A stretch of 55,719 bases of DNA. Origin: Phycisphaerae bacterium. Its GTDB lineage: Bacteria; Planctomycetota; Phycisphaerae; JAJVII01. Shown in pieces: positions 1,554 to 55,406 of the stretch (its first letter is position 1; every line of letters begins with the position of its first letter). Position numbers and translations under genes: made by a program. The DNA is taken from NCBI GenBank assembly GCA_022072085.1, contig JAJVII010000070.1, positions 1 to 55,719 of the forward strand. Reading direction: 5' to 3'. Below the pieces are notes generated by a model. The model was not told the origin of the DNA and ran no database searches. It saw only the letters and a program-made list of their open reading frames with translations.

Positions 1554-4187
1554 ATGAATCAGGCGTGGACGATCCGGAGGCGTGCGAAGGCGGGCCTTGC
1601 TGCCCTGGCTGCCCTGGCGGCGGGGCTGACGATACTCCTGGCGGCGACCCCGCAGGCGATGGGCGATGAGCCGGCGGCTGCCCCCGCGGCGGCGGCCGAC
1701 AGCGGCGCGGTGATCGGCCAGGGGACGCTGTGGCGGTGCTTCAAGGGTTTCCGCACGCCCGACGTCCGTAACGACGAGGGCAAACTGGAGCCCCGAAACA
1801 TCAACGCCTACTGGGGCGGCATCATGGGCAGCGAGGCCAAATCGGTCGGGGCCTCGCCGCTGCCTGACGCCGCCTGGGTCAACGTGGACTTCGACGATGC
1901 GACCTGGGACCGCCTGCGCGCTCCGCTGGCGCCGCGGGGCAACCTGGAGGCCGGCGACCAGTCCTACGACCTGTCGCTGATCCTCGCCCGCGCCCGGTTC
2001 AACGTCGACGATCCCGCAAAGGTCAAGGCGCTCACGCTCACCGTCAACTATCAGGGCGGGGCGGCCGTCTACCTGAACGGCCGACTCATCGCCCGCGGCC
2101 ACCTGGGCGGCGATAGGCCCGATCTTCAGGCGCCCGGCGAGGACTATCCCAGGGAGGCCTACGTCACGCCCGAGGGCAAGCTGCTGCGCCCCGACGACAA
2201 GAACAACAAGGACCGCATCGCGCTGCGCGACCGCAAGCTCGACACGGTGGCCGTGCCCCTCGACGCTCTGCGCAAGGGGGTCAACGTGCTGGCCGTCGAG
2301 GTCCACCGCTCGCCGATCCCCGCGGTGGTCGGCGGGCAGGGCAAGGGCCCGTCGCGGGCCGACGCGTGGGCGGCCTGGCCGCCGGTGGCGCTGCTGAGCG
2401 TGGAGTTGTCGGCGTCGGTGGCCGGCGCGGTCTCGCCCAACGTCGCCCGCCCCGCGGGCGTGCAGGTCTGGACCTGCGACCCGATTCACACGCTGGGGAC
2501 TTCCGAGTATCGCGACCCCTGCGAACCGCTGACGCCGGTGGACATCACGGCCGCCCGCAACGGCGTCTTCTCCGGCCGCGTCGTCGTCAGCTCCGATCAG
2601 CCGATCAGGGGCCTGGCCGCCAAGGTGAGCGACCTGGCCGACGACAAGGGCGGTAAGATCGCCGCGGCCCAGGTGCAGGTCCGTTACGGCGAGCCGGCGA
2701 TCCCGGCCAACTGCGCCGTGCCCGCGGGGCGATTTGACGGGCTGCTCGACGCGATTCCGGCGGAGATTCCCGTCGTCGGCACGGGCCCCGACGCCGGGGC
2801 GGTCGCGCCGATCTGGCTCACCGTCCGCGTGCCGGCCGGCGCCGCGCCGGGCGACTACAGGGGGACGGTCACGCTGTCGGCTGACGGCCTGTCGGCGACG
2901 GCTGTGCCCGTGGTGCTGCACGTCAGCGGCTGGACGCTGGCCGACCCGAAGGACTTCCGCGTCCACAACTTCGGCCAGGTTTCGACCGACTCGCTGGCCC
3001 GGCGCTACGACGTCGAGCGCTGGTCGGACAGGCACCTGGCGCTGATCGCCCAGTCGATGAAGTGGATGGCCCAGATCAACTCTCGCGAGGTGCTGGTCGA
3101 TCTGTGCATCAACTTCTACGGCGGCAACAAGGGGGCGATGGACAGCAGCAACGTCGAGTCGATGGTCCGCTGGATCCGCCAGGCCGACGGCAGCTACAAG
3201 CACGACTACGCGGTGCTGGACAAGTATCTGGACATGGTGGCCAAGGCGATCGGCCAGCCGATGCTGCTGCGGATCAACGCCTGGGGCGAGTGGGGAACCG
3301 CCAACATGAAGACGCCCGAGTGGCACGGACCCAGCGCGGTGAGCCTGCTGGACCCGGCCACCGGCAAGCTGGAGGCCCTCGACCAGCCGCCGGGCGATAA
3401 GCCGGAGTTCGTCGCGTTCTGGAAGCCGGTGCTCGGCGAGGTCCGCAAGAAGATCGAGGCCCGCGGCTGGTGGGGTGCGACCGCGATGGGCGCCAACTCC
3501 TACTGCTGGGGCGTCGGACCGGCGATGGTCGACGCGCTGCACGAAATCTGGCCCGACGCGGTCTGGGCCTACACCGCCCACAACGGCACGCTGGCTGCCC
3601 GTGCCAAGGGCGCGACCGAGGGCGTCTCGGCCCTCATCCGCTACGCCGACTGCGTCTGGTCGCACGGCAAGCCCGTCCCGCGCGGGGCCCAGCAACTGCT
3701 CAAGCCGCGCGCCGGCGACTGGTGCTTCACCTTCCGCGGCCACCGCGACAACCGCGCCCCGTCCAGCTATCGCACCATCCCCGAGCGCGAACTGAGCATG
3801 GGCCAGGACGGCTACAGCGATTTCGGCGTGGACTTCTTCCCCTTCCCCGGCGCCCGCGGGCGGCTCTACCGCGTGGGCAACGGACGCGGCACCGGCGGGC
3901 CCAACGACGGCACGCTGGCCATCCTCGCCCCGGGCCCCGACGAGCCGATCGCCACCGAGCGCTTCGAGATGCTCCGCGAGGGCGTCCAGCTCGCCGAGGC
4001 CGTCCTGTTCCTCGAACGCGCCCTGGCCGACAAGAAGATCGACGGCGACCTGGCCGCCAGGGTCAACCGCCTGCTGGACGAGCGCGGCCGCCTGCTCGTC
4101 AACAACTGGCTCAACAGCCGCCTTATCGCCGACCGCGAGTTGCTGGCGACCGCCGGCGAGGTGGCCGCCGCCGTTGCGAACCGGTAG
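1554..4187 (+). CDS. Secreted GH123/DUF4091-like protein with N-terminal beta-sandwich
   Basis: 877 residues, started at the ATG behind GAGGAGG. Residues 1-38 form a signal peptide (twin arginines near the N-terminus, [19 protein letters not shown] core). Residues about 90-270 look like a GH2-type sugar-binding jelly roll ([39 protein letters not shown]). A further beta domain follows, then a catalytic-type barrel from about 470 with many Trp/Asp residues, and a C-terminal helical stretch ([20 protein letters not shown]) typical of DUF4091/glycoside hydrolase family 123-like proteins. GH123 enzymes release beta-N-acetylgalactosamine, but most planctomycete relatives are untested, so the substrate is unknown. 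It is a single gene, divergent from the small-gene group on its left. Confidence 0.75.
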
Positions 4188-8622: not shown

Positions 8623-8913
8623 CCCCTCTCCGGCCGCGACTTCGTCGCGTCCACCTCCCCCGCGAGGGGGGGAGGGGTGGGGGCGGAACGAGCCACCGGC
8701 CTCGGACCACAAGCCACTGACCCCTGACCAAGCCACCCTCACCCCGGCCCTCTCCCTCGCTTCGCGAAGGAGAGGGAGAAGAGGCCGAGCCGATCGTCCC
8801 ACAGCACTCGCCACTCGCCACTCGAAACTTGAAACTCGTCACTCCCCTGGGCCGGTTGGGGTCCGGCCGGCGTCGCGGATGAGCCACAGGTTCCGGCCGG
8901 GGGGGGCGGGCCA
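8623..8913. other. Gene-free spacer built of repeat elements
   Basis: No gene seen. It holds a G/C-run inverted repeat (8640-8690, cctcccccgcgaggggggag), the phrase ccactgacccctgacc, the REP-like element (8735-8778) and the word repeat cactcgccactcgaaacttg (8801-8845) that also occurs near 55310. Confidence 0.7.
8735..8778. repeat. REP-like palindromic element, copy 1
   Basis: ccctcaccccggccctctcc followed by a hairpin whose arms are ctctccctcgcttcg and cgaaggagagggag. The same head sequence recurs at 27723 and 32490, and inverted at 55246. Confidence 0.8.
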
Positions 8914-27073: not shown

Positions 27074-29755
27074 CTACAGCAGTCCGATGCACAGTCGTCC
27101 CGCGATCACCGCGGCGTCCTCGGCGTCGAAGGCTCGGCGGATCGCGGCGTCGAAGACCACCTCGGCCGACGGGCCCATCTCCTCGTCGCCGACGCGGTAG
27201 ATCAGCGTCACGTCGATCCGTCCGACCGCCTGGACCCGGGCCCCCAGGTCGCCGATCGGCAGCGGCTGCCAGCCGAAGCGGTCCAGGTTCTTCCGCAGCG
27301 TCGCCAGGTCGTTGCCGATCCGCCGCTCCAGCACCGCCGCCGACCGCGCCCGGAACGAGTCCCAGTAGAACGGCCCGCCGGGCAGGTCGCGGAACCCGAT
27401 CAGTTCGCCCGTCGGCCCGACCGGCACGTCGCACAGCAGGTAGTGCAGCGCCAGCACGCGGTCGGCTGCCCGTTTGGCGGCGAGCCGCAGGCGAGCGGGC
27501 TCTTCACCAGCGCCTTCGCCCTCGGTCTCCACCGCCTCGAAATCCGGCGGCGCCAGCCGCACGCGCCGCCCGAACACCGGCACGACGACCGCGCCGTCGG
27601 CGTCGGGTGGTTCCAGCCCCAGCGTCGCGCAGCGGGCCGCCAGGTCCACGCCCTGTAGCTTGCTCGCCGCCAGTCGGGCCGCGTCGATCAGCGCCTGCTC
27701 GCGGTTGCCGGGGGCCGATGAACCCTCACCCCGGCCCTCTCCCTGGGAGGGAGAGGGAGCAAAAGGGGCCTCCTCGTTCGATTCCGCCGCCCGCATTGAA
27801 GAGGAGGGGGCGTCCTCCGGCCTGCCTTTTCGCGATTCCTGCGTCGCCGCCATCCGCGCCTGCACGGAGGGGAACTGCCCGGGGTCGGTGTGCGGCAGGA
27901 AGAGGGCCGCGGTGTATTGCTCCATGTAGCCCGGCTCGCCGCCAAGGTCCACGTAGGTCATCCGCGACGCGAGGTCGAGCTGGCGGCGGCGGTAGTCCTG
28001 CGACACCGCGACCATGTAGCTGCCCATCAGCGACGTGTTGCCGACGTAGGCGAACCGCTCCCGCGGCAGGTCCGGCAGCAGGCCGAGGGTCACCGCGTTC
28101 TCCAGGTCCAGGAACCGCCCGAACCCGCCGGCGATGTAGATGTGGGCCAGGTCGCCGAAGCCGATGCCCACCTGCCCGAGCATCAGCCCGCAGGCCGAGT
28201 AGATCGCGGCCTTGGCCCGCACGATGTTCTCGATGTCCAGTTCGCTGATTGTGACCGGCCGGCCGTCGTGCGACTGCTCCGCCGGGGCGACGACGTAGCG
28301 GGCCCGGCGGCCTTCGATCTGGATGGCCGGGCTCGGCCGCGAGCGGTCCAGCCGCCCGGCCGGGTCCAGCCAGCCGGTCGTCAGCAGCTTGGCCAGCAGG
28401 TCGATCATGCCCGAGCCGCAGATGCCGCGCGGGCGGACCTGGCCGATGGTCCAGTACTTCGCGACGCCGGTGGCCGGGTCGATGTCCACCTTCTCGACCG
28501 CCCCCAGCGCCGCCCGCATGCCGCACTCGATGCCGCCGCCCTCGAACGCCGGGCCGGCGGAGCAGGCGCAGGTCATCAGGAACTCGTTGTTGCCGATCAC
28601 CAGTTCGCCGTTGGTCCCCACGTCGATGAACAGGTTGATCTCGCCGGTGTCGGTCGCCAGGTCGGTGCAGAGCAGCCCCGCGGTGATGTCGCCGCCGACG
28701 TAGCTGCCCACGCAGGGCGACAGGCAGATCCACGAGTCGGGGTTGATCCGCATGCCGATCTCGGCGGCCGTGAGGAACCCGAACCGCGTGACCGTCGGCG
28801 TGTAGGGGTCCAGCCGGATCTGCTCGGGCTCCAGGCCCAGCAGCAGGTGCATCATCGTCGTGTTGCCGGAGACCACCGCGTTGCAGATTTCCGCCGGCGC
28901 GACCGAGCGGCCCTCGCAGACGCCGGCGATCAGCCGATTGATCGTGCCCAGCACGCGGGTCCGCAGCTCCTCCAGCCGCCGCGGCGTGCGGGCGTAGGTG
29001 ATCCGGCTGAGCACGTCCAGCCCGCAGGCGACCTGGTCGTTGTAGTCGCTGCGGGTCGCGAGGATTCGGCCCATCGTCAGGTTGATCAGTTGCACCGCGA
29101 CGGTGGTCGTGCCGACGTCGATCGCCAGGCCGAAGTGCCGCGTCGTCGTGTCGCCGGCCTCGACGCGGATGACGTGCAGCGGCGACTCGCGGCCGGGCCC
29201 GCGGATGAGCGTCACGGTCACCTGTCCGCCGGCCGCCCGCAGCGCCGCCGCCGCCGACCGCATCACCGAGAGGGGATAGATCACCTCGCGGCGGCCCCAG
29301 TCGCGCTGCACGGCGCGGGTCAGGCGGTCCAGGTCGCTCAGGCCGTCGTCGCGGCGCGGCGGCTCGACCGCGAGCAGCCACTTGAGGGCGAGCGGCTCGA
29401 ACTGGAACTCCCGCGGCAGCAGCTCGCGGCGGAGCAGGTGGGTCTCGTCGGCGTCGGTGAGCTTGCCGCCCTCGTAGCCGAGCTGCTCGGGGACCTCGAT
29501 CGTCACGTCGCGCTCGCCCACGCGGCTGCGGCAGGCCAGCACGTGCCCCTCGGCGGCCGCCGTCCGGGTCAGGCTGCCGATGCTATCGCTGTCCACCTGG
29601 CCGCTGGCGACGCGGACGATGCACGCCCCGCAGGTTCCCTTGCCGCCGCAGGCCGCCTCGATGAGCACGCCCGCAGCCTGCGCCGCGTCGGTCAGCTCCG
29701 TGCCCGCGGGCACGCTGGCGGATCGGCCGGACGGCATGAAGGTGACAGTGGGCAT
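27074..29755 (-). CDS. acsV: Corrinoid protein reductive activator (RACo-type) fused to DUF3786
   Basis: 893 residues. Residues 1-90 are a plant-type [2Fe-2S] ferredoxin domain (ACGGKGTCGACIVRV, then VLACRSRV). Next come a linker domain and an ASKHA ATPase domain (LAIDVGTTTVAVQLIN, VSGNTTMMHLLLGLE, FIDVGTNGELVIG, YIAGGFGRFLDLENAVTLG), the layout of RACo, which uses ATP to re-reduce Co(II) in the corrinoid iron-sulfur protein. The enzyme normally ends near residue 620-640. Here a linker containing an in-frame REP-like repeat (about 665-680) leads to a C-terminal domain (about 700-893, VLALHYLLCDVPVGPTGELI, FRDLPGGPFYWDSF) that I identify as DUF3786, normally a separate protein of anaerobes. 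Lies between acsC and the methyltransferase gene. Confidence 0.9.
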   Translation of the reverse strand: MPTVTFMPSGRSASVPAGTELTDAAQAAGVLIEAACGGKGTCGACIVRVASGQVDSDSIGSLTRTAAAEGHVLACRSRVGERDVTIEVPEQLGYEGGKLTDADETHLLRRELLPREFQFEPLALKWLLAVEPPRRDDGLSDLDRLTRAVQRDWGRREVIYPLSVMRSAAAALRAAGGQVTVTLIRGPGRESPLHVIRVEAGDTTTRHFGLAIDVGTTTVAVQLINLTMGRILATRSDYNDQVACGLDVLSRITYARTPRRLEELRTRVLGTINRLIAGVCEGRSVAPAEICNAVVSGNTTMMHLLLGLEPEQIRLDPYTPTVTRFGFLTAAEIGMRINPDSWICLSPCVGSYVGGDITAGLLCTDLATDTGEINLFIDVGTNGELVIGNNEFLMTCACSAGPAFEGGGIECGMRAALGAVEKVDIDPATGVAKYWTIGQVRPRGICGSGMIDLLAKLLTTGWLDPAGRLDRSRPSPAIQIEGRRARYVVAPAEQSHDGRPVTISELDIENIVRAKAAIYSACGLMLGQVGIGFGDLAHIYIAGGFGRFLDLENAVTLGLLPDLPRERFAYVGNTSLMGSYMVAVSQDYRRRQLDLASRMTYVDLGGEPGYMEQYTAALFLPHTDPGQFPSVQARMAATQESRKGRPEDAPSSSMRAAESNEEAPFAPSPSQGEGRGEGSSAPGNREQALIDAARLAASKLQGVDLAARCATLGLEPPDADGAVVVPVFGRRVRLAPPDFEAVETEGEGAGEEPARLRLAAKRAADRVLALHYLLCDVPVGPTGELIGFRDLPGGPFYWDSFRARSAAVLERRIGNDLATLRKNLDRFGWQPLPIGDLGARVQAVGRIDVTLIYRVGDEEMGPSAEVVFDAAIRRAFDAEDAAVIAGRLCIGLL
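27723..27757. repeat. REP-like element inside a coding region, copy 2
   Basis: ccctcaccccggccctctcc with the hairpin ctctccctgggagggagag. Read on the minus strand it encodes PSPSQGEGRGEG in the linker between the activator and DUF3786 domains, without breaking the frame. Confidence 0.85.
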
Positions 29756-29792
29756 GAGGTTACGTCAAACAGTGTTACTCGCGGCCAAGTGG

Positions 29793-29905
29793 GGATTCTG
29801 GATTTTCGATTGAAGATTCTTGATTGAAGGAGAGAGAGGACCCGCACGCCAAGTCCTTTCTTTTCCGACAATCTGCAATCCAAAATCTCAAATCCAAAAT
29901 TTCTC
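29793..29905. repeat. Inverted word repeat between acsC and the activator gene
   Basis: Left arm words ggattttcgattgaag, right arm words caatccaaaatctcaaatcc; the arms can pair into a long imperfect hairpin. The same words recur at 38103-38215. Confidence 0.7.
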
Positions 29906-29908
29906 CCT

Positions 29909-31252
29909 TCAGTTCAGCCGCGCCTTGATGAAACTCTCCAGGTCCGCCGCCTCGGCCGGGCCGACGAGAACCTCCCAGCCGGGCAGGCCCTCCTCCAGTT
30001 CGCCGCTGATCTGGGCGACGTAGCCGGGGATCACGATCCGCCGGGCGGAGACCTGCGACTCCAGGCCGATCTCGCGGGCGAACTTCGCGATCGAGCCGCC
30101 GGAGAACTTGCCCGCGGCCCACGCGGTCAGCACGCTCATCCCCTCGCACTCGGGCACGAGCAGCCAGGCGCTCGTGCCGCTGTTCTCGATCTCGCCGCTG
30201 ACGATGAAGTAGGTCAGCGAGAAGTTGGTCGTGACGAAGACCGGCGAGTCGGGCTTCGGCTCGCCGACCGGGTAGAGCTTGGGCTCGACCTGGATGGGCT
30301 TCTGCGGATCGGTGTAGACGTTCAGCCGAAGGGTCATCAGCGCCGCCAGTTGGGCCGCGTCGAAGCGCGGCAGCACGATCAGCCCGCCGTACTTGGCGAT
30401 TTCCGTGACGGCCTCGACGGTGGCGTCCAGTTCGTCGCCGTCGCCGATGATCCGCAGCGACGGGTAGCCCAGCGGCTTGAAGCTGTCCTTGATTGCGGCC
30501 CGCCGGGCGATCGAGTTGGTCTGGAACTGCTCAGCCAACCCCTGCACGCCGGACTTGAAGTTCAGCAGCAGGTCGTTGAACCCGGCCGCCTTGATCCGGG
30601 CCGCCAGGGCGACCAGGCCGTCCAGGTCAGCCGCCGACAGCGCCAGGGCGTGCTCGTTCTCCTTGGCGACCGGCCAGAGGGCGTCGGCCGACTCGGGATC
30701 GGGGCAGCAGATGACGCTGTGCGAACCCATGACCGCGACGGCCGCCGACCGCAGGGCGTTGGCGTCGGGGCTGACCAGCACGAGCGGCCGCCCGACGGCC
30801 TTCCACGCCTTGGTCGCCAGGGCGACGAAGGCGGCCGCGTCGGTCCCGCGCTGCGTGACGGCGACCATGTCCACGCGGATCTGCTGGCCGACCCGCTCCA
30901 GCAGGTAGTCGGCGACGGCCTTGAGCGTCGCGTCAACTGTGGCCGCCGGGTCGGTGTCGTTGACGTTAACGGCGATCGCCGGGGCGTGGACGAAGGTCCG
31001 CTCGTGGCGGTAGAGGACGGTCTCCTCGCCGAGCTTGAGTGACTTGTCGGCGCCGAGCGCTACGCCGCGGACGGGGGCCTCGGCTGCTGCGCCCAGAACC
31101 TGCTTGGCCTCCTCGGAGGCGTAGGGGCACTCGGCCAGGTCAGCCTTCTTGGCGGCCAGCTTCATCGCGAACGCCAGGCAGGTGTTGCAGCCGCATTCCT
31201 TGCAGTTGGTCTTCGGGAGAAGTTTCTGAATCTGAAGGCCTGTCAGTGCCAT
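29909..31252 (-). CDS. acsC: Corrinoid iron-sulfur protein large subunit
   Basis: 447 residues, full length for AcsC/CdhE. N-terminal four-cysteine motif for a [4Fe-4S] cluster (LLPKTNCKECGCNTCLAFAM, then LAECPY), a TIM barrel in the middle, and a C-terminal corrinoid-binding domain (SGTSAWLLVPECEGMSVL, ending ARRIVIPGYVAQISGELEEG). It carries the methyl group on cobalt from methyl-tetrahydrofolate to the A-cluster of acetyl-CoA synthase. Its small-subunit partner is not a separate gene but the C-terminal part of the upstream fused protein. Cytoplasmic; oxygen-sensitive. Confidence 0.95.
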   Translation of the reverse strand: MALTGLQIQKLLPKTNCKECGCNTCLAFAMKLAAKKADLAECPYASEEAKQVLGAAAEAPVRGVALGADKSLKLGEETVLYRHERTFVHAPAIAVNVNDTDPAATVDATLKAVADYLLERVGQQIRVDMVAVTQRGTDAAAFVALATKAWKAVGRPLVLVSPDANALRSAAVAVMGSHSVICCPDPESADALWPVAKENEHALALSAADLDGLVALAARIKAAGFNDLLLNFKSGVQGLAEQFQTNSIARRAAIKDSFKPLGYPSLRIIGDGDELDATVEAVTEIAKYGGLIVLPRFDAAQLAALMTLRLNVYTDPQKPIQVEPKLYPVGEPKPDSPVFVTTNFSLTYFIVSGEIENSGTSAWLLVPECEGMSVLTAWAAGKFSGGSIAKFAREIGLESQVSARRIVIPGYVAQISGELEEGLPGWEVLVGPAEAADLESFIKARLN

Positions 31253-31287
31253 GATCGCCTCAATTCCTGTTGAGCCTCTTCCTCGCC

Positions 31288-31383
31288 TGAATGTCGAGTG
31301 TCAAATGTCGAGTGTCGAATGAAAGAAGGATGCGGCCCACGGCTCTTTGCATTCGACATTCGACATTCGTCATTCGACATTTC
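31288..31383. repeat. Inverted word repeat overlapping the end of the AcsB-AcsD gene
   Basis: atgtcgagtgtcaaatgtcg on the left pairs with cattcgacattcgacattcg on the right. The right arm supplies the last three codons and the stop of the gene ending at 31370. The same words occur at 43545-43693. Confidence 0.75.
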
Positions 31384-34300
31384 CATTCCCGTCCATCAGC
31401 CGGTCGATCGTCCGCTTCAGCGCCGTTGCCGCAGCGGGGTGATACATGATCAGGATGTCCGCGCCGCTGTAGAGGAACGTCGTCGCGGTGGACAGCTCCC
31501 ACAGCGCGGCCCGGCGGGCCAGGTCGCCCCAGGCGGGCATGTCGGCCTCAGCCGACCGCAGTTCCTTGACCTTCGCGCACTCCTGGCCGGGCGAGACGAT
31601 CAGCGGGGCTGCGAGCATCTTGTCGCCGCCCAGCGCGGTCAGGCGGATGCGCTCCATCACGCTGTAGGTGTACTCGATGCCGTAGCCCATCGCCCCGGTC
31701 ATCGGGTCGCTGACGATCTGGCCGGGCTGGATGTCCATGTTGGTCAGCAGGATGTTGAGCTGCTTGCCGATGTTCACGTCGATCGGCGACTGGGCGACGA
31801 CGCAGTGGCCGTAGGCCATCGCGGCCCCGGCGATCGTGCGGTAGTTGTCCTGCTCGACCCAGTTGAGCAGCAGGTTCTCGCCGGCGCAGGCGGCGGCGAC
31901 GGCCTTGAGCACCTCGTTGGCCTTGTCGAAGTGGTTGTGCCCGGTCACGATCAGCGGCACGTCCACCGCGGCCAGCACGGCCTTAACCGTCTCGACGGCC
32001 TGCTCGGGTGTGCGGTTGCCGCGCTCGGGGTGCGTGCCGTCCAGGCGGACGCTGATCAGGTCAGCGCCGTACTGGCTGACGCAGAGGCGGGCCATGGCGG
32101 CCGGGTCGTGGACGGCGTCGCCGTAGATTTCGCGAAGGACCTTTGGATACTTCTCGCTGACGGCGTCGAAGACCTCCATCGCGACCAGCGGGCGGTGGGG
32201 CATCCGGCCTTCCCAGAGGTGGAAGGGCATGCAGGTCGCCCCGCCGACGGTCAGCGTGTGGCCGCGCGTGCCGCCCTGCTCGCGGGTCGCGCCCAGCGTG
32301 ACGGTGTTGACGGGGACTTCGCTCTTCTCCTTGCGGATCGCGACCGAACGGACCGCGCCGAGGCGGTCGGATGCCTTGGGAGCGGGCGGAGCGGTGGGAA
32401 CTGACGCGGGGACGCCGGGACGCGGCGACACGGGGAAAGAACCCAGGCCCCGGCCCTCTGGCTGGGAGGGAGAGGGGGGAAGAGAAGAACCCTCACCCCG
32501 GCCCTCTCCCTGAGAGGGAGAGGGGGAAGAGGGGACGCCGAGGAAGCGTTCGCTCAGCGTGTTGATGATCTCGGTGACGATCTGCCGCGTCAGGGCCGGG
32601 CGGATTTCGCCGACGATCTCCTGCGCAATCTCCTTCTTCAGCCGTGCCAGGTCGTCGGCCGTCATGGGCTGGCCGCCAGGCGCCGCCGCAGCCGGCGCGG
32701 CGGATTCCGGCGCTGGCGCAGGTGCAGCCGCGGCCTCCTGTGAAGGCGCGGGGGCGGCCGCCGGGCTTTCGGCGTTCGCGGGAGCGGGGGTCTCCGCGGG
32801 CGCTTCGTGCGCCTGCGCCAGCTCGCTCATGTCGGGCATCGTCAGGGCCGGGTGGCCGACCTTCTCCATGAACGCCCGGATTTCCGACGGGTCGGTCGCG
32901 ACGGTTTCGTCGGCGATCTGGTCCATCAGGTCAGGCGCGCCCTGCTCGGCGAAGCGCCGCCGCAGGTCGTCGCCGAGCAACTCTTTCAGTTCCTTGGGCA
33001 TCCAGACCAGCCGCTTGTGGCCGCCGTCGGCGAAGCAGAACTTTCGGCTGGTCAGGAACACCTTGCCGCAGCCCATGAAGCCGGGCGTCTGCTGTCCGCC
33101 GCCGACGTTGCCGGCCAGCGAACTGAAGGTCATGCCGACGGGCGTGTCGCCGGGGAACTCGCGGTTGACCACCATGATGCCGTTGCACTCGGGGACGTAG
33201 CCGCAGATGACCTCGAAGCAGCCGCAACTGGTCATCGGGCGGTCCATGATCGAGTAGGCGCAGAAGGCCTCGGTCATCTTGTGGCTGTTGGTGAAGACGT
33301 AGTCGTTGACGCCCTTCCAGATGCCGCGGACGGGGTCGAGGCAGTCGCCCTTGAGCACCGGCTGGTTGGGCCCGGTCTCGTCGATTTCGTAGGCGGCCTT
33401 GCCGTCGAGCCAGTTGTAGGCGCCGCACAGCCCCAGCCGCTCGGGCGTGATGACGCAGACGTGGTTGGGCGCGAAACTCTGGCAGAGCAGGCAGGAGTAG
33501 AAGGTGTCCACCGAGTCATCGGTCATGCTCTCCAGGCGGCGGTTACGCTGGTCGTAGGCCTTGCGGGCGATCGGCAGCCGCCGCTCGACCTCGGCCGGAT
33601 CGGTGATCATCGTGACCTTCACCTTGTCCACGATCGCGGGGTAGTCGCCCAGCAGCTTGGCGTGGAGGATTTCGCCGTAGTGCCGCAGCCGCAGGCCGCG
33701 TTCGAAGCCGGTCTTGCTCACGCGGGTCCAGATGATGTCGCGCTGGCCCATGTGCCAGACGCCCTCGGCGCCGTTGAGCAGGTGATGAATCTGCCGCTCG
33801 AGGATCGGCTCGAAGTCGGGCTGCATCTTTCGCCCGGCCACCTCGACCCAGATGGCCAGCGGAACGGCCGTGCCCGGCTGGACGCTGTCGATGTCCGGGC
33901 CGATCAGGTCGATCTGGCCGTCGTTGACTTCGTCCATGCCCACGGAGGTGACGAACTCGAAGGCGTGGGAGCGGTTGCCGCCGAACTCGACGTGCACGTC
34001 GTTCTTGCGGATGCGTTCGCCCTCGAACGCCGGCCCGTAGGGCACGGGCACGGGGACCTTGGTGATGCGGATCTTGCAGCCGCGGACCTCCAGGGCCTTC
34101 TCGACCATCGTCTCGCAGGGCACGCCGGAGACGACGTGCTCGTAGGTGCAGACGCCGGTGGGCAGAATCTGCGGGATATCGGTGTCGGCGACGACGGGGA
34201 AGCCGTAGTTGATCGCCCCGGCCGCGGCGGCGTACTTCTCCGCGTCCACCTCGTCCAGCGCCAGCACGAACGCGAAGATGCGGTTCTTGTTGTAGCGAAG

Positions 34301-35002
34301 GTTGGCTTCGTAGTCGCCGGGCTTCACCCCGCCGAAACTCAGCGCCGCCCGGTTGGCAAAGCCCAGCGCGTACACCAGCGAAGAGACGTCCTTGCCGAAG
34401 GGGACCAGCCGCGTCTCCCAGCCGAGCTGCACGCCGGCGTCGGCCAGTTGCTCGGCGAACTGCACGCCGCCGGTCGCACCGCCCATGAAGACGTAGATGT
34501 TCTTCTCCTGAAGCTCGCGGGCGATCCGGACGGCCGTCTCGTTGCTGGGTGCCCGGCCGGTGATTGCGGCAAAGCCCGGGGCCGTGCCGTCCACGAACTC
34601 GATGCCGCGCTCGCGCATGATGACGTCGCTGGCGGCGCCCAGCCAGATGCCCTTGACCGGCGGCGGGCCGATGAGGTACTTGCAGGCCTCGATGATCTCA
34701 CAGGCGAACAGCGCCGCGACGCCGGCGTCCAGGGCGTTGCCCAGGTACGGCAGCCAGACCTTCTCGCTGGGCCGGTTGGGCAGCAGCTCCTTGGCCAGCC
34801 GCAGCACCTCGCGGCAGTCGGCCAGCGTGCGGACGGCCTTGCCGGTGAAGGCGTAGATGATCGGCAGGAAGTAGGCGGTGTTGGGGAAGCCGACGGCGGC
34901 CGACTCGCCCCTGGCGGCGACGGCCTGGTCGAGCTTGGCCTCGGCCCGCGCCACCCAGATCGTCGCCCCGTCAATCGCGCTTGCGCAGATCAGCTTGGAC
35001 AT
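31370..35002 (-). CDS. acsB: Fused acetyl-CoA synthase / corrinoid protein small subunit (AcsB-AcsD)
   Basis: 1210 residues. Residues 1-727 are a complete acetyl-CoA synthase: CODH-contacting N-terminal domain, central domain, and A-cluster cysteines in SCLLCQSFAPNHVC, RLGLCGAY and the hallmark TSCGCFEVI. Residues about 728-880 are an Ala/Pro-rich flexible linker with a short helical patch and two in-frame REP-like repeats. Residues about 884-1210 are the corrinoid protein small subunit (AcsD/CdhD TIM barrel): VNTVTLGATREQGGTRGHTL, VTGHNHFDKANEVL, MTGAMGYGIEYTYSVMERIR. Normally these are two genes. The fusion ties the methyl donor to the site of acetyl-CoA assembly and forces 1:1 synthesis. 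It sits between acsA and acsC in the operon. Confidence 0.93.
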   Translation of the reverse strand: MSKLICASAIDGATIWVARAEAKLDQAVAARGESAAVGFPNTAYFLPIIYAFTGKAVRTLADCREVLRLAKELLPNRPSEKVWLPYLGNALDAGVAALFACEIIEACKYLIGPPPVKGIWLGAASDVIMRERGIEFVDGTAPGFAAITGRAPSNETAVRIARELQEKNIYVFMGGATGGVQFAEQLADAGVQLGWETRLVPFGKDVSSLVYALGFANRAALSFGGVKPGDYEANLRYNKNRIFAFVLALDEVDAEKYAAAAGAINYGFPVVADTDIPQILPTGVCTYEHVVSGVPCETMVEKALEVRGCKIRITKVPVPVPYGPAFEGERIRKNDVHVEFGGNRSHAFEFVTSVGMDEVNDGQIDLIGPDIDSVQPGTAVPLAIWVEVAGRKMQPDFEPILERQIHHLLNGAEGVWHMGQRDIIWTRVSKTGFERGLRLRHYGEILHAKLLGDYPAIVDKVKVTMITDPAEVERRLPIARKAYDQRNRRLESMTDDSVDTFYSCLLCQSFAPNHVCVITPERLGLCGAYNWLDGKAAYEIDETGPNQPVLKGDCLDPVRGIWKGVNDYVFTNSHKMTEAFCAYSIMDRPMTSCGCFEVICGYVPECNGIMVVNREFPGDTPVGMTFSSLAGNVGGGQQTPGFMGCGKVFLTSRKFCFADGGHKRLVWMPKELKELLGDDLRRRFAEQGAPDLMDQIADETVATDPSEIRAFMEKVGHPALTMPDMSELAQAHEAPAETPAPANAESPAAAPAPSQEAAAAPAPAPESAAPAAAAPGGQPMTADDLARLKKEIAQEIVGEIRPALTRQIVTEIINTLSERFLGVPSSPSPSQGEGRGEGSSLPPSPSQPEGRGLGSFPVSPRPGVPASVPTAPPAPKASDRLGAVRSVAIRKEKSEVPVNTVTLGATREQGGTRGHTLTVGGATCMPFHLWEGRMPHRPLVAMEVFDAVSEKYPKVLREIYGDAVHDPAAMARLCVSQYGADLISVRLDGTHPERGNRTPEQAVETVKAVLAAVDVPLIVTGHNHFDKANEVLKAVAAACAGENLLLNWVEQDNYRTIAGAAMAYGHCVVAQSPIDVNIGKQLNILLTNMDIQPGQIVSDPMTGAMGYGIEYTYSVMERIRLTALGGDKMLAAPLIVSPGQECAKVKELRSAEADMPAWGDLARRAALWELSTATTFLYSGADILIMYHPAAATALKRTIDRLMDGNGNVE
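32442..32526. repeat. Two tandem REP-like elements inside acsB-acsD, copies 3 and 4
   Basis: ccaggccccggccctctggc (32442 onward) and ccctcaccccggccctctcc (32490 onward), each followed by a short inverted repeat. On the minus strand they encode SPSQGEGRGEG and SPSQPEGRGLG in the interdomain linker. Confidence 0.85.
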
Positions 35003-55120: not shown

Positions 55121-55166
55121 GGGACCGGTCCCCTTTTCGCGAAGACGCGAAAAGCGGACCAGTCCC
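55121..55166. repeat. 21 bp-arm hairpin
   Basis: Arms gggaccggtccccttttcgcg and cgcgaaaagcggaccagtccc (two mismatches) around the loop aagaa-type tetranucleotide. No coding frame explains it. Confidence 0.7.
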
Positions 55167-55226
55167 CTAAGAGCGGGCCAGTCCCCTAAGAGCGAACCCG
55201 TCGCCTAAGAGCGGATCAGTCCCCCG
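55153..55226. repeat. Tandem 19-base repeat, four units
   Basis: Unit agcggaccagtcccctaag at 55153, 55172, 55191 and 55210 with scattered changes, overlapping the right arm of the preceding hairpin. The remaining parts of 54917-55245 hold no gene that I can support. Confidence 0.75.
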
Positions 55227-55245
55227 AGGGCGGGCGGCTGCCGCC

Positions 55246-55290
55246 CTTCTCCCTCTCCCTCGCAAGCGAGGGAGAGGGTTGGGGTGAGGG
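55246..55290. repeat. REP-like element, copy 5, inverted
   Basis: ctctccctcgcaagcgaggg followed by agagggttggggtgaggg, the reverse complement of the element at 8735. It is followed (55300-55360) by aacttgaaactcgaaactcg and cactcagcactcagcac word repeats. Confidence 0.8.
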
Positions 55291-55406
55291 TGTCTTGGTT
55301 CCTCACTTGGAACTTGAAACTCGAAACTCGACACTCCGCACTCAGCACTCAGCACTTCCCTCCTCCCCCGCTTTATTCGCGCCGGGGGTTCGGCTAACAT
55401 GACGGC

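Follow-up and report, generated by a model that had tools for sequence, protein, structure and literature searches.

In-frame copies of a dispersed BoxC-type repeat in the linkers of two Wood-Ljungdahl fusion proteins of a Phycisphaerae bacterium

Wood-Ljungdahl genes and element copies in the window

The window, the whole stretch of 55,719 nucleotides that was analyzed, corresponds to contig C42 in an assembly that has 72 contigs and totals 5.49 Mb. It encodes two fusion proteins of the Wood-Ljungdahl pathway, both on the minus strand, and carries copies of a short palindromic element within and between genes. The relevant features are as follows.

8730..8783, plus strand: BoxC copy with a long loop (11 nt), core 8736-8776, intergenic
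27074..29755, minus strand: RACo-like corrinoid activator fused to DUF3786, linker at about residues 633-703
27717..27764, plus strand: BoxC/TM unit with a short loop, core 27723-27757, in the RACo-DUF3786 linker
29909..31252, minus strand: putative AcsC, between both fusions, assigned by its place and by inspection of the sequence by eye
31370..35002, minus strand: AcsB fused to AcsD/CdhD, linker at about residues 726-904
32436..32483, plus strand: decayed second BoxC unit, core 32454-32476, in the AcsB-AcsD linker
32484..32531, plus strand: BoxC/TM unit with a short loop, core 32490-32524, in the AcsB-AcsD linker
55244..55296, minus strand: BoxC copy with a long loop (10 nt), core 55251-55290, intergenic

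Pfam searches placed the Fer2, RACo linker, middle and C-terminal domains of the first fusion up to residue 632 and DUF3786 from residue 704; in the second fusion, CODH_A_N, CdhC and ACS_CODH_B_C extended to residue 725 and CdhD began at residue 905. The elements were located between these domain blocks in both proteins. The copies claimed in a preliminary description of this DNA were all confirmed: the element core is a 35-bp palindrome with one in-frame copy in the RACo-DUF3786 linker and two, at a spacing of 48 bp, in that of AcsB-AcsD, and the copies at 8736 and 55251-55290 both lie between genes. A 20-mer taken from that description, searched with up to three mismatches allowed, was detected at 8736, 27723 and 32490 on the plus strand and at 55271 on the minus strand (2 mismatches). 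Dinucleotide shuffles of the window gave a mean of 0.01 matches, ruling out a chance origin, and none of 100 shuffles contained four. The in-gene copies had been described as always reading as similar peptides; PSPSQGEGRGEG is the in-frame minus-strand reading of both 27723-27757, in open reading frame (ORF) 27074-29755(-), and 32490-32524, in ORF 31370-35002(-), and the third, decayed copy reads PSPSQPEGRGLG. The 48-bp pair would fit either slippage duplication or a second insertion.

No Rfam family was detected in the window at the gathering score. When RNA folding was compared with that of shuffled sequences, the short in-gene units folded no better (z of −1.16 and −0.24), the decayed copy had a z of 0.50, and the long intergenic unit alone folded better (z of −3.37). 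Other repetitive text was observed in the same intergenic regions. A tandem GAGCGGACCAGTCCCCTAA-like text at 55150-55230, beside the intergenic BoxC copy, occurs also at loci L128 and L100 and resembles pieces near BoxC copies on contigs C10 and C27. Degenerate intergenic repeats, GAATGTCGAGTGTCAAATG and ACTCGAAACTTGAAACTCG, were present at 31290-31383, 8805-8845 and 55300-55350, beside genes and BoxC copies.

Identity and dispersal of the element

Judged by its sequence, the element is a repeat of the BoxC, PIT or TM_ECO type, a G/C-rich intrastrand triplex motif, and fits the published pattern. It is composed of CCCTCTCCC as the pyrimidine arm, GGGAGAGGG as the purine arm and GGGGTGAGGG as a second purine tract, from which a third strand could form by folding back. 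On the coding strand, the short core reads CCCTC-T-CCC, five bases, GGG-A-GAGGG, three bases, GGG-T-GAGGG. The pattern given for TM_ECO, formerly BoxC or PIT, by Holder et al. (2015, PMC4666352) is CCCTCNCCCN3-6GGGNGAGGGN3GGGNGAGGG. The window cores at 27723 and 32490 match this pattern exactly; at 55251 and 8736, the long loop goes beyond the N3-6 limit. Within 317 kb of regions from the same genome, 14 exact matches were found, with 0 for the reversed control, and 15 further matches were obtained with a loop of N7-12. At least eight of the nine third-strand triads of a 9-triad purine motif were present in 40 of 43 copies from this genome as against 821 of 5,850 shuffled heads, a comparison that is not independent, since the copies had been selected by the same head.

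A genome-wide count of in-frame copies had been proposed in the preliminary description. The whole genome contained 29 perfect palindromes and 34 heads at up to two mismatches, and reversed-pattern controls gave 0. Regions around these sites, together with the window, made up a census of 317,236 bp, in which genes were predicted with a home-made dicodon model and the coding fraction was 0.844. Forty-four head-bearing copies were scored, or 43 without one double detection (L124), and removal of four more duplicates left 39 events (21 short and 18 long). All ratios refer to head-bearing copies; headless cores exist too, some of them within genes. Thirteen of the 43 copies were wholly within predicted genes (12 genes) and are therefore read in frame. 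Set against the coding fraction, this number indicates that the element is rarer in genes than expected.

Inverted pairs of a plain unit and a B unit with an extra hairpin were listed at several places of the genome; of the pairs in genes, two lie within a PD40 gene and one within the C23 gene. The TM_ECO paper reports 23 copies in Escherichia coli MG1655, none of them within a gene, and five cases of inverted pairs formed by types A and B; it describes triplex formation by an isolated TM_ECO strand while regarding stable triplexes in vivo as unsupported (PMC4666352). Using blastn with a 61-bp query, matches were detected in 4,304 of 5,426 E. coli genomes, one example being a copy between fepB and entC, and in 134 plasmid records and 2 phage records. 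The present element resembles TM_ECO in the exact fit of the short form, the inverted pairs of two types, the dispersal, the patchy presence among related genomes and the lack of a detected transposase link. It differs from TM_ECO in its host, as the paper counted proteobacterial genomes and the window comes from another class (Planctomycetota), and it differs from TM_ECO in MG1655 in having a long-loop form outside N3-6 and a share of its copies in genes. Intergenic location is a property reported for one strain and stands outside the sequence definition of TM_ECO.

Exact heads were found in 33 of 150 genomes of the window's class, its own included, at 1 to 72 copies each. Among the matches listed, in-gene detections amounted to 4/4 in G001, which represents a second genus of the same family, 7/29 in G065, 2/14 in G059, 2/31 in G089 and 0/15 in G077; exact heads in the whole genomes of G065 and G059 number 72 and 52, detections having been sampled at the listed places. 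Pfam searches, covering 10 of the host proteins in these other genomes, identified MnmG, a P-type ATPase, an amine oxidase and a PMT-like protein in G065, UvrA and a radical SAM/HemN-like protein in G059, MutS and TsaD in G089, and TPR and PMT-like proteins in G001.

Host proteins, unit length and reading frame

Of the 12 host proteins in the window's genome, 8 were subjected to Pfam searches and 7 had matches, the C23 protein having none; the other four hosts are two RHS-like proteins and the C40 and C57 proteins. Besides the two fusions, the hosts were a NuoN-like Proton_antipo_M protein, OdhB (the 2-oxoglutarate dehydrogenase E2), a radical SAM/SPASM protein resembling an anaerobic sulfatase-maturating enzyme, a PD40 protein and a PQQ-propeller protein. 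In OdhB, the element separates the lipoyl domain from the E3-binding domain. Non-fusion proteins are therefore included among the hosts (NuoN, OdhB, radical SAM and RHS). An AMP-binding protein with a headless core near its C-terminus stands outside these counts. At locus L119 (G000:C29), the same in-frame BoxC copy occurs at positions 4057 and 6998, in two RHS-like genes separated by 2.9 kb, and the segment was therefore probably duplicated after insertion. An RHS paralogue compared as an exact empty site was not clean, with a gap of no more than 8 residues at an identity of 44%.

Alignment of orthologues, another check proposed at the outset, yielded relatives without the peptide for NuoN, RACo-DUF3786 and AcsB-AcsD. 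At the position of the element, a gap of 16 columns separated the NuoN host from two solved NuoN proteins and one of 17 columns from the NuoN of G001, which shows an empty site. The relatives of OdhB and of the radical SAM protein were also without the peptide, though the alignment is loose there. Being in frame and absent from orthologues, the element behaves as a predicted protein-coding palindrome in NuoN and in both fusions.

Flank conservation placed the edges of the unit at about −6 (AAGAMA) and +6/+7 (RGAAGAG) around the core, for a unit length of 47-48 bp (16 codons) with a 5-nt loop and 52-53 bp with a 10-nt loop. These two forms were distributed differently: by detections, 14 of 24 short-loop copies and 0 of 20 long-loop copies were in genes (Fisher p = 3.4e-5), and with duplicates removed the numbers were 11 of 21 and 0 of 18 (Fisher p = 2.3e-4). 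The PSPSQGEGRGEG frame was used in 7 of 11 in-gene events (p = 0.002 versus 1/5, in a post hoc test), and by eye the short-loop unit is open in five of the six frames. In G065 and G059, loops of 3 or 4 nt were present in 5 of 9 in-gene copies, and a strict 48-bp rule therefore fails there.

The explanation that we consider probable is that a dispersed BoxC-type repeat has in-gene copies surviving only at sites whose frame and fold permit it, the Wood-Ljungdahl hosts carrying passengers. New copies would be inserted without regard to frame, with most staying between genes, and copies within genes would survive selection only where frame and fold allow. A short-loop unit of ~48 bp (16 codons) would be frame-neutral and could persist where a linker or loop is flexible, usually in the PSPSQGEGRGEG frame, as a small polar peptide. 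A long-loop unit of 52-53 bp would shift the frame, and this form was found only outside genes. The length split was observed directly, and we infer selection as its cause. The few or no in-gene copies in G089 and G077 and the reliance of the gene calls on a home-made dicodon finder count against this explanation. A more far-reaching version, possible but on the doubtful side, is that the 16-codon subfamily is a PSPSQGEGRGEG protein-coding cassette in the course of spreading, with length alone confining its 5-nt-longer sister to spacers and with AcsB-AcsD linkers colonized independently in distant phyla.

Two BoxC subfamilies with different targets, the short one entering coding DNA and the long one entering spacers, could also produce such a split without frame selection, and the short and long forms do differ in flank conservation as well as in location. 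We regard this as rather unlikely, as one frame predominates among the in-gene copies, a bias that selection explains directly, and short copies are also found between genes (10/21).

Fusions without the element and the status of the linker copies

Of 80 related loci, labelled in their records as many phyla, 65 encoded AcsB and AcsD as a single open frame, and none of these had the peptide; in the remaining 15, one part was missing, distant, not in the same frame or affected by a cut in the contig. Phycisphaerales records are among those relatives of this fusion that bear a taxon name. The AcsB-AcsD linker distance is 81 aa here versus a median of 55 (50 of 66 linkers being measurable), and the linker is ordinary in size once 32 residues are subtracted. 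RACo and DUF3786 were separate genes in 14 of 14 related loci having both. A fused RACo-DUF3786 query was matched by 36 of 61 genomes of the class, and only 2 had both parts in one open frame, namely, the window's genome and G001, whose linker lacks the element. Of the two fusions previously called unusual, that of RACo to DUF3786 is indeed rare, while that of AcsB to AcsD is common. As G001 is fused without the element, the RACo-DUF3786 fusion would either predate the element or have arisen independently; the element may also have been lost in G001.

These loci bear on the suggestion of the preliminary description that a palindrome landing in a stop region or spacer had helped to join neighboring genes. 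The separation of RACo and DUF3786 in all 14 loci, their fusion in the window's family only (2/61 genomes) and the location of the element in the joint of one of the two fused genomes are consistent with such an event. The insertions had been placed exactly at the joints; they are located inside the linkers and at no junction that could be reconstructed. Approximately 35 open linker codons precede the element in RACo-DUF3786, a 48-bp insert is frame-neutral, though able to interrupt a stop, and many hosts are non-fusion proteins. Given also the AcsB-AcsD and G001 fusions that lack it, creation of the fusions by the element is very unlikely, and the element appears to have made neither of them.

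Fourteen of the related Wood-Ljungdahl loci have DUF3786 downstream of the gene for the RACo-like activator, frequently no more than 100-250 bp away (L019, L020, L024, L033, L040, L066 and others), and it is a candidate partner of this activator. Two linkers of G001, in RACo-DUF3786 (L130) and in an OdhB-like protein (L227), both contain a GRRGDE-like low-complexity peptide, and the OdhB-like match is apparently without the E3-binding stretch. The GRRGD text was rejected as a dispersed repeat family, being found in 149 kb in its own linker only, with the other match overlapping a BoxC copy.

Other repeats were detected in AcsB-AcsD linkers. That of L058, a deltaproteobacterial record, has a BoxC-type hairpin without the third strand, a structure with only two occurrences across the 80 loci (958 kb; reversed control, 0), and also an SVIPANAGIQ palindrome with five matches in the genome of L058 (control, 0). 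The linker of L036 has a AATTCGGAATTCCG palindrome that recurs at a few further sites in the L036 genome, and the palindromes of both linkers lie in frame. Inverted repeats with arms of at least 8 numbered 12 in 66 AcsB-AcsD linkers versus 7.05 in codon shuffles. This excess is weak. Short of statistical proof, the repeats in the L058 and L036 linkers suggest that tolerant linkers collect repeats. Tolerance of the element by linkers had been the second alternative of the preliminary description and is supported; in the two Wood-Ljungdahl fusions, the element would be a tolerated passenger in linkers not needing it.

Lipoyl-domain linkers of E2 need flexibility. This, the linker-like nature of PSPSQGEGRGEG and the two units in AcsB-AcsD could be taken to mean that the inserted peptide was recruited as a useful flexible linker, which we consider highly improbable because the AcsB-AcsD pair includes a decayed copy, the peptide is absent from orthologous linkers, and copies are also present in NuoN and radical SAM loops. 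Least probable of all is a GTAG-type REP mobilized by a RAYT of this genome, an association also raised in the earlier work: the element is palindromic and dispersed, with inverted pairs, and the genome has three Y1_Tnp genes, but the element has no GTAG or CGTC end (the conserved edges being AAGAMA and RGAAGAG), no copies were present in the 3.2-3.3 kb around each of the three genes, and one of these genes has its own, different palindromes. At L016 (G000:C54:27227-30568), a Y1_Tnp (RAYT-like) gene adjoins its own palindromes, AAAAAGTGGACC..GGTCCACTTTTT, at 1391-1454 and 2137-2193; one is a 56-bp inverted repeat with 25-bp arms, and the arrangement is REPIN-like and unrelated to BoxC.

Protein-coding palindromes as such are already known. 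Rickettsia palindromic elements are likewise palindromic repeats in frame in unrelated genes and are longer, at about 150 bp (PMC10969869). Enterobacterial RU elements are also small mobile sequences translated within genes, with lengths of 103-168 bp (Delihas 2007, PMC2759123). Intragenic GTAG/CGTC REPs are short palindromes in ORFs with uvrA among their hosts (Di Nocera et al. 2013, PMC3733652); the UvrA and MutS hosts of BoxC in other genomes recall these repair-gene hosts, and unlike these REPs the present element has no GTAG/CGTC end and no RAYT association was found. No report of BoxC inside coding sequence was found in the open-licence literature, nor by bare sequence.

The findings indicate that a widespread repeat without known function enters predicted proteins, with unit length modulo three as a simple filter. 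Such peptides in databases can mark repeats instead of domains. The copies are natural probes of insertion-tolerant linkers in central enzymes, the Wood-Ljungdahl proteins included.
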